From positions 1-20,915 of IMG/VR virus record IMGVR_UViG_3300043426_000139: a stretch of 20,915 bases of DNA; one strand, written 5' to 3'. The DNA comes from a virus. The notes beneath the pieces were generated by a model. It was not told where the DNA came from, searched no databases, and was given only the letters and a program-made list of their open reading frames with translations. Below, in pieces: positions 12,409 to 14,291 of this stretch. A program made the position numbers and the translations under genes. The stretch's first letter is position 1. Each line of letters begins with the position of its first letter.

Positions 12409-13296
12409 TTATGCCGACTTGAGGATGGTCAGCGCGGCGGCTTGGCCAGCCGAGATGCCGAATCCGAGACCAGCCCAGATGTGATAGTTGCCGTCGTTGC
12501 CATCCCAGAACTTGGTTGTGATGGTGATTCCGGTGGCCGGATCGGTGTAGCTTCCGATCAGCGCCGAGGTGCCGAAATCGGCATTCTCGAACGAGGGGCG
12601 GAAGCCCACCGCGAACGCTTCGGGAGCGGCCAGCCAGCCGACGAGGTTTGCCACGTCACCCGAAGCGGCCACGCTCGAAACCTTGGCGATCTCGAAGCCG
12701 TGGACGTTGGGAATGACGTTGCGCTTGATCACGCCGTCGTCACCGAAAGCGTAAGCGGCTTGGATCGCATTGTCTTTCGACAGAGCGCCCGTGTAGGTCG
12801 GAGTCAGGACGGCATAGCGACCTTCGGTGCTCGCCAAAGCAACATCCAGCCCGGTGGCAGCGTCGGCCATGTCGTCGGCGTCCCAGTTGGCAGCGGTCGA
12901 CGTGATTGCGGTGTTGGTGTAGGTTGCGGCCAGCACCAAAGCGTTCTGCATGGCAAACATCTTCTTGGCGATTGCGCGACCCATGACGGGGACAGCGGCC
13001 ATCGCGAAGTCGACTGGAGTTTGGTTGACCACCAGCTTATTCTGCTTGATGTAGTCGTAGACCTCGGTAAAGGTCACGGTCACGCCAGTGGTAGCCGCCG
13101 AGCTGGATGTATAGTTGGCGGTGGCCTGCGTGAACTCCGCGCCCGTGCGCTCGGCGAAGATGTTGACGACAGTTGACTTTGCTCCCGGCACATTCTCGAC
13201 CTTGATCGAGTTGCGGAGCACGGGACCAATTGCGGTTACCAGCGAGGGGAAAACGCCCCGCGAAACCGCTTCCATGTTCAAAGATGTGACAGCCAT
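12409..13296 (-). CDS. E: Major capsid protein
   Basis: This 295-residue protein directly follows the protease/scaffold gene, the invariant place of the main shell protein. It starts MAVTSLNMEAVSRG after a strong AGGAGAA ribosome site that overlaps the protease stop. Features seen in HK97-fold shell proteins include a TVVNIFAERTGAE segment, an E-loop-like beta region (YTSSSAATTGVTVTFTEVYD), a long central helix (AMAAVPVMGRAIAKKMFAMQ) and a late VHGFEIAKVSSV strand. The second half (DNAIQAAYAFGDDGVIKR...) recalls P22-type coat proteins more than lambda gpE (341 aa). No separate decoration gene corresponding to lambda D lies between protease and capsid. A terminator follows immediately. The role is secure by context; the exact family less so. 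Confidence 0.88.
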   Translation of the reverse strand: MAVTSLNMEAVSRGVFPSLVTAIGPVLRNSIKVENVPGAKSTVVNIFAERTGAEFTQATANYTSSSAATTGVTVTFTEVYDYIKQNKLVVNQTPVDFAMAAVPVMGRAIAKKMFAMQNALVLAATYTNTAITSTAANWDADDMADAATGLDVALASTEGRYAVLTPTYTGALSKDNAIQAAYAFGDDGVIKRNVIPNVHGFEIAKVSSVAASGDVANLVGWLAAPEAFAVGFRPSFENADFGTSALIGSYTDPATGITITTKFWDGNDGNYHIWAGLGFGISAGQAAALTILKSA

Positions 13297-13298
13297 GA

Positions 13299-13742
13299 TT
13301 ATTCTCCTGCGAAGATTTCTTTTTTGTGGGCGGAGTAGTAGGCGGCAGCTTCTTGCAGCCGCCCAGATTCGCGGAGAGCCTTTTCTTTCGCCGTATGCGT
13401 GGTGAAGGTCTCCAAGTCCCCCTCCTCGACATGAGACATCCCATCAGGTGCGGACACCTTGAGGTTGTGAGCGGCAAATTCTTGAGCGCCTTCGATCTTC
13501 GCGGCGGCGACAGCTTCTGTCAGCGCGAGAGCGTGGGCGGTGTTCGCAGCTTCGAGAGCAGCAACGGCTTCGGATGCGCGAGCCTCAGCAGCGGTGGCGC
13601 GGCCCTCGGCGTCGGCGATCTTGGCGACGGCTTCGGACAAAGCACCCTCGGCCTTCGCGAGGTCAGCTTTGATCTCGCTGGTCCCGTTGACCTTGGCGAG
13701 CATTCTTTCGAGCAAACTCGGTTCGTTTTCTGGAGTGGGCAC
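13299..13742 (-). CDS. Nested scaffold protein (Nu3-like) from an internal GTG start
   Basis: Inside the protease gene, in the same frame, a perfect AGGAGG (13753-13748) stands five bases before a GTG codon (13742-13740, residue Val184). This start would make a 147-residue protein, VPTPENEPSLLERMLAK onward, that is the coiled-coil scaffold alone. Lambda makes its Nu3 scaffold in exactly this way, from an in-frame start within gene C. The ribosome site falls at the Pro/Glu-rich junction between protease and scaffold, which is where selection for a second product would place it. A separate scaffold would be made in excess over protease, guide shell assembly and be degraded. Not directly proven. 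Confidence 0.75.
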   Translation of the reverse strand: MPTPENEPSLLERMLAKVNGTSEIKADLAKAEGALSEAVAKIADAEGRATAAEARASEAVAALEAANTAHALALTEAVAAAKIEGAQEFAAHNLKVSAPDGMSHVEEGDLETFTTHTAKEKALRESGRLQEAAAYYSAHKKEIFAGE

Positions 13743-14291
13743 GGTTGCCTCCTGTGGTGCGTGTTTGAACTTCATGGATTCCGGGATCTTCGCGAACGCT
13801 GCGGCCTTGCCTTCGATCCCGTGGGCAAATCCAAGCGCGACAGCCTCATCAGGAGAGAGCCACGTTTCGGCGTCCATCATTTCGCGAGCCTTGTCGACGG
13901 AGACTTTCCCTCCCGTGACTTCGCTGTACATCGCGGCCATGTCGTTTGCGATCCCATCGAGAACATCCGCTTCGGCGCGAAGGTCGTTCGCCTCGCCGCC
14001 TGCGTAGCTCGTCGGGTTGTGGATCATCAGGCGCGACCCGGTAGCCATCAGGCGCTTCTTGCCTGCCAAGAATATGACCGACCCCATCGAGGCTGCGAGG
14101 CCGTCGACGTGGGTCGTAGTGTTGCCGTGACCCTTGATCGCGTTGGCAATGGCGAGCCCCTCCCAGACGTAACCGCCTGGAGAGTTGACGCGTACTGTCA
14201 GCTTTTCGCCCTTGGCCTTGGAGACTTCGCGGACAACGTCCAGAGCCATCACATCCCATCCGATAGCGCCGTACAAAAGCAGATCAGACAT
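13299..14291 (-). CDS. C: ClpP-like (S14) head maturation protease fused to scaffold domain
   Basis: The protein has 330 residues. Residues 1-165 form a ClpP/S14-type serine protease: VRVNSPGG (33-40), nucleophile region DGLAASMGS with Ser68, general base in LMIHNP with His91, and MMDAETWLSPDEA (138-150), whose Asp140 is a candidate third residue. Residues 184-330 are an Ala/Glu-rich coiled coil typical of scaffolding (ADLAKAEGALSEAVAKIAD region), ending in a short folded tail. In lambda the C protease also carries the Nu3 scaffold sequence at its C-terminus, so the fusion is the normal lambda plan. The start at 14291 has GAGG seven bases upstream and overlaps the portal by eight bases. The product assembles and then processes the procapsid, probably destroying itself. 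Confidence 0.92.
   Translation of the reverse strand: MSDLLLYGAIGWDVMALDVVREVSKAKGEKLTVRVNSPGGYVWEGLAIANAIKGHGNTTTHVDGLAASMGSVIFLAGKKRLMATGSRLMIHNPTSYAGGEANDLRAEADVLDGIANDMAAMYSEVTGGKVSVDKAREMMDAETWLSPDEAVALGFAHGIEGKAAAFAKIPESMKFKHAPQEATVPTPENEPSLLERMLAKVNGTSEIKADLAKAEGALSEAVAKIADAEGRATAAEARASEAVAALEAANTAHALALTEAVAAAKIEGAQEFAAHNLKVSAPDGMSHVEEGDLETFTTHTAKEKALRESGRLQEAAAYYSAHKKEIFAGE

Follow-up and report, generated by a model that had tools for sequence, protein, structure and literature searches.

The question raised by the protease gene of this virus is whether its single reading frame yields one protein or two. The window analysed here, i.e., the whole 20,915-base virus record, carries a lambda-like head module on its minus strand, and within this module lies a 330-residue open reading frame (13299-14291, minus strand) for a ClpP-type head maturation protease with a C-terminal scaffold-like tail. 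The first-pass annotation had claimed that an internal start in this gene produces a separate scaffold protein, following the strategy of lambda C/Nu3. The proposed nested gene would span 13299-13742 (minus strand) and encode 147 residues.

The protease gene and its tail

Upstream of the protease, family matches identify a gpA-type terminase (18107-16092, minus strand) and a lambda-family portal protein (PF05136; ending at 14284, minus strand), the stop codon of which is overlapped by the protease ATG (ATGTCTGA), with GAGG upstream of this ATG. Directly downstream of the protease frame is the gene of the major capsid protein (phrog_267; 12409-13296, minus strand), with a Shine-Dalgarno (SD) sequence in the arrangement AGGAG-N7-ATG. 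The protease is assigned through NF045542 (ClpP-related head maturation protease), matched with 149.8 bits against a curated cutoff of 120, and through the Pfam family CLP_protease (PF00574), which covers residues 25-159 with 100.2 bits against a cutoff of 20.2. The candidate residues S68, H91 and D140, which by comparison with ClpP we take to be the Ser-His-Asp triad, are invariant in 30 homologues. In the AlphaFold2 model, residues 1-163 (13803-14291, minus strand) form a ClpP domain with pLDDT near 95, and this part matches solved ClpP structures in the PDB (E about 2e-13, TM 0.8 by target). The linker (residues 177-190) is predicted to be disordered, with pLDDT below 50, and is followed by a tail (204-329) in which a long helix (204-280) is separated by a break from small helices at the C-terminus (290-329; pLDDT about 90). 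The model thus depicts the tail as an independent helical, scaffold-like module placed after the linker.

The different parts of the locus have different closest relatives. One close homologue, L002, is 52% identical in the protease, 71% in the coil, 88% in the C-terminal domain of the scaffold and 92% in the capsid protein, while the values for a second one, L003, are 75, 63, 48 and 67%, respectively; a third, L095, is like L003 in being closer than L002 in the protease (69%). By sequence identity, the evolution of the tail follows that of the capsid protein and not that of the protease. This switch of closest relative between protease and scaffold fits a recombined scaffold-capsid unit, and the rise in identity to L002 from 52% to 88-92% (12409-14291) makes it likely that the recombination boundary lies inside the scaffold. 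The scaffold role of the tail is predicted from gene order and helical architecture, and the identity pattern supports it, notably as regards capsid binding by the C-terminal helices. Alternatively, the tail could serve the protease as a targeting or regulatory arm, the internal product then being something else, e.g., a decoy. In favour of this, the sequence-family matches are to a head maturation protease and none of them names a scaffold domain. However, the tail is coded between the portal and capsid genes, where no other scaffold candidate was seen, its long helix and C-terminal helical domain fit a scaffold, and it follows the capsid protein in sequence identity, all of which makes a targeting or regulatory arm highly improbable.

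The proposed internal start and its conservation in close homologues

The final conserved stretch of the protease part, F175-x3-P179 (13755-13769, minus strand), in which F175 is nearly invariant among homologues, is followed shortly by the proposed internal start. On the minus strand, the codons around position 184 read CCA CAG GAG GCA ACC GTG CCC, i.e., AGGAGG-N5-GTG in frame, with AGGAGG at 13753-13748 and GTG at 13742-13740. The AGGAGG five bases before an in-frame GTG is therefore present as first described, and so is its location at the protease-scaffold junction, with V184 in the middle of the predicted linker, five residues past P179. GTG apparently serves as start codon of other genes of the window too (ORFs 18107, 9069 and 7372). 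When SD sequences were scored as the energy of the anti-SD duplex (kcal/mol) with a spacing penalty, the V184 site (-9.7) was the strongest among the window starts compared, with -5.6 (moderate) for the protease, -7.4 for the capsid protein and -1.3 to -9.5 for other genes. RNA folding was uninformative on the use of the start, the region being slightly less structured than shuffled sequences (z = +0.9), with a small hairpin of 4 bp over the GTG.

Taken alone, the motif is weak evidence, since its count is near chance and the same gene holds a second motif of this kind. AGGAGG-N5-GTG occurs once in the window against 0.18 expected, and at least once in 18 of 100 shuffles; AGGAGG itself occurs 13 times against 9 expected. 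The second motif, an in-frame AGGAGG-N5-TTG near the C-terminus of the protease gene (13426-13413, minus strand; EEGDL), scores slightly better in the SD scan than the V184 site. It is kept in L002 and missing from L003 and L095, is probably without meaning and, not being conserved in the latter two, serves as a negative control.

Comparison with L002, L003 and L095, the three close homologues found (55-66% identical), is more informative. In each of them, the codon aligned with V184 is an in-frame ATG, which lies five or six codons past the residue matching P179 and follows an SD-like sequence. The arrangements are AAGGG-N9-ATG in L002, GGAG-N9-ATG in L003 and GGAGG-N8-ATG in L095. The residues upstream of the start vary across the four sequences (PQEAT, PEDIR, PLEITA and PKGMYT), and no part of the gene is less conserved in its DNA or changes faster than the linker, which shows 24-53% identity around residues 181-195. 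Judged from these alignments, conservation extends to where a start with some SD lies and not to the sequence AGGAGG-N5-GTG itself: of the expectation that this motif would be kept in homologues, the position and an SD-like sequence held in three of three, and the exact string did not. Further close relatives were absent from a scan with the L095 protein, and a tail-only search of viral contigs for free-standing scaffold genes returned only L002 (as L094) and L003, in both of which the scaffold is fused. Alphaproteobacterial genomes gave distant matches only, in 9 of 385.

These comparisons bear on the possibility that AGGAGG-GTG is a chance by-product of the codons CAG GAG G, and that the fusion works only as one protease-scaffold chain. 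The near-chance count and the second AGGAGG-N5-TTG would agree with this, as would a synonymous randomisation of the ten codons before the start, in which the joint SD excess, tested on the four homologous sequences only, was not significant (Fisher p = 0.22) because random synonymous codons often give an equally good SD when the amino acids are fixed. Nevertheless, a chance by-product is very unlikely in view of the three homologues, which retain a start and an SD-like sequence at the site despite different residues, and of the enrichment of ATG codons at the junction across the wider family.

The junction in the wider ClpP-type protease family

This enrichment was observed in a sample of 70 non-redundant open reading frames with a ClpP domain and a tail of 130-300 residues, which were compared with 25 short-tailed proteases. 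An in-frame ATG lies at codons +26 to +46 after G154 in 73% of the long-tailed proteins, against 16-29% for later windows of equal width. In the short-tailed proteases, the corresponding figure is 44%, which is not above that of their own preceding window (56%). As single-linkage clustering chained nearly all sequences, greedy clustering of the tails only was used, and a junction ATG was found in 18 of the 29 resulting clusters against 7.1 expected (p about 1e-5; Wilcoxon p = 7e-4). The test window lacks an ATG in the other 11 clusters, in some of which the codon falls just outside it. Because the clusters share ancestry and the junction window was picked after the sequences had been viewed, these family figures are to be read as strong support and not as exact probabilities.

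The SD at the junction follows the habit of the phage. Where the capsid gene has an SD, the junction usually has one too, and where the capsid gene has none, the junction ATG often lacks one as well. Over 71 loci, SD strength at the junction correlates with SD use by the other genes of the phage (rho -0.45, p = 8e-5), although control windows in the tail likewise correlate with it, weakly (rho -0.40). In SD users, strong SD values are reached by 67% of the junctions versus 22% of the tail control windows, and the junction SD surpasses the tail controls in the groups that use SD sequences (p = 0.0014). A further observation concerns the group formed by L096, L097, L099, L105 and L109, which have two conserved in-frame methionines in the tail. 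The second one (MNAELQxK, +64 to +72) is preceded in most of them by an SD-like sequence, and it may be here that the scaffold of this group actually begins.

Free scaffold could also arise without any internal start, if the only route to it were self-cleavage of the 330-residue protein within the disordered linker and AGGAGG-GTG were incidental. Lambda gpC and related proteases do self-process, the linker is predicted to be disordered, and the conserved F-x3-P just before it could be a cleavage site. However, self-cleavage needs neither a start codon that recurs at this place in homologues nor an ATG enrichment at the junction or an SD strength that follows the SD habit of the phage, and it is therefore unlikely to be the only source of scaffold. 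Moreover, F/Y-x3-P occurs in short-tailed relatives too, so that the motif looks like a feature of the protease; cleavage may still take place in addition to internal initiation. F-x3-P (residues 175-179), which is conserved in ClpP-type head proteases with or without tails and falls in a low-confidence region of the AlphaFold model, is possibly a cleavage or docking site.

The best reading of the locus is thus the one first put forward, that a separate scaffold is made from an internal start, and it is supported by the conserved position of the start, the ATG enrichment in the family, the covariation of the SD and the predicted location in the linker. Very probably, the frame at 14291-13299 gives rise to two proteins, the protease-scaffold fusion and a nested, separately translated scaffold of 147 residues; the use of the internal start, the stoichiometry of the products and their role in assembly are inferred.

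Known nested scaffolds and the proposed role in assembly

The window shares with lambda the order terminase, portal, protease-scaffold and capsid, a lambda-family portal (PF05136) with a gpA terminase, and a scaffold that is nested within the 3' part of the protease gene and shares its frame, a feature which in lambda is annotated and here is predicted. It differs in that no gpD gene lies between the protease frame and the capsid gene, and in that the annotated nu3 start of lambda scores -1.5 compared with -9.7 for the internal SD of the window. Furthermore, lambda C is an S49 protease, whereas that of the window is of the ClpP type (PF00574, S14); only PF00574 was matched in it and an S49 domain was not found. 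The likeness to lambda C/Nu3 therefore extends to the proposed function, i.e., a nested in-frame start at the junction, and not to the protease family, and for this reason the gene is not filed under the lambda C family. Mu-like phages (Mu I/Z, BcepMu gp32/gp33 and KS10 gp28/gp29), the protease family of which differs from the ClpP type, likewise have the scaffold inside the protease gene and in its frame. In KS10, AGGA precedes the internal ATG, and the same is said of many phages (PMC2628397). The open-access literature searched yielded no description of a scaffold nested in a ClpP-type gene.

A related ClpP protease domain is present in the protease-scaffold-capsid fusions of NF045540 (Gifsy-2, Fels-1, mEp460 and MD8), which differ from the window in that the capsid protein is fused too; the protease of the window (P0001) scores 171.8 bits against this family, below its cutoff of 475. 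A 2010 paper reportedly deals with the tripartite gene of Gifsy-2. All nine named ClpP-capsid fusion phages compared (L186, which is Gifsy-2, and L187-L194; MD8 was left out) have an in-frame ATG about 25 codons past the ClpP anchor, behind a GAGGA/AGGAG-type sequence and overlapping a conserved F-x2-M-P motif. Since this ATG lies inside the motif, it may exist for protein reasons, and the Gifsy-type fusions were downgraded as extra support. Among the relatives, all seven triple-fusion frames (L113:3637, L119:1563, L078:3544, and those of L121, L035, L044 and L122, the latter four with the ATG +73, +60, +63 and +52 codons after the anchor, respectively) show, a short distance past the ClpP domain, an ATG that is in frame and accompanied by an SD-like sequence, e.g., AAGGAGG-N5-ATG in L113. 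If used, this internal ATG would produce a separate scaffold-capsid protein.

In the proposed pathway, initiation at the protease ATG, coupled to the portal stop and helped by a moderate SD, would yield small amounts of the full protease-scaffold fusion, while initiation at GTG 13742 behind AGGAGG would yield larger amounts of the free 147-residue scaffold. More free scaffold than protease would be expected from the difference between the internal SD (-9.7, albeit before a GTG) and that of the protease (-5.6). The free scaffold, consisting of a long coiled helix and a helical domain at its C-terminus, would attach to the capsid protein and guide the assembly of procapsids. Through the shared tail, the fusion would bring the protease into the procapsid, and the protease would then digest the scaffold.

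A nested start of this kind would be a simple way for a single gene to supply few proteases and many scaffolds, and would extend the strategy of lambda to a protease of a different family. The arrangement is of a known kind, here with a different type of protease, and is thus ordinary in kind and useful in its generality. More tentatively, it is quite possible that the capsid genes of phages with ClpP-type proteases, including the Gifsy-2/MD8-like protease-scaffold-capsid fusions, generally have nested and mostly unannotated starts where the ClpP domain ends, that the internal start sets how much protease is made relative to scaffold (or scaffold-capsid) protein, and that phages not using SD sequences keep the start codon without one. 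Gene callers give one protein where two are probably made, and the scaffold of these phages is consequently absent from annotation and seems to be missing.
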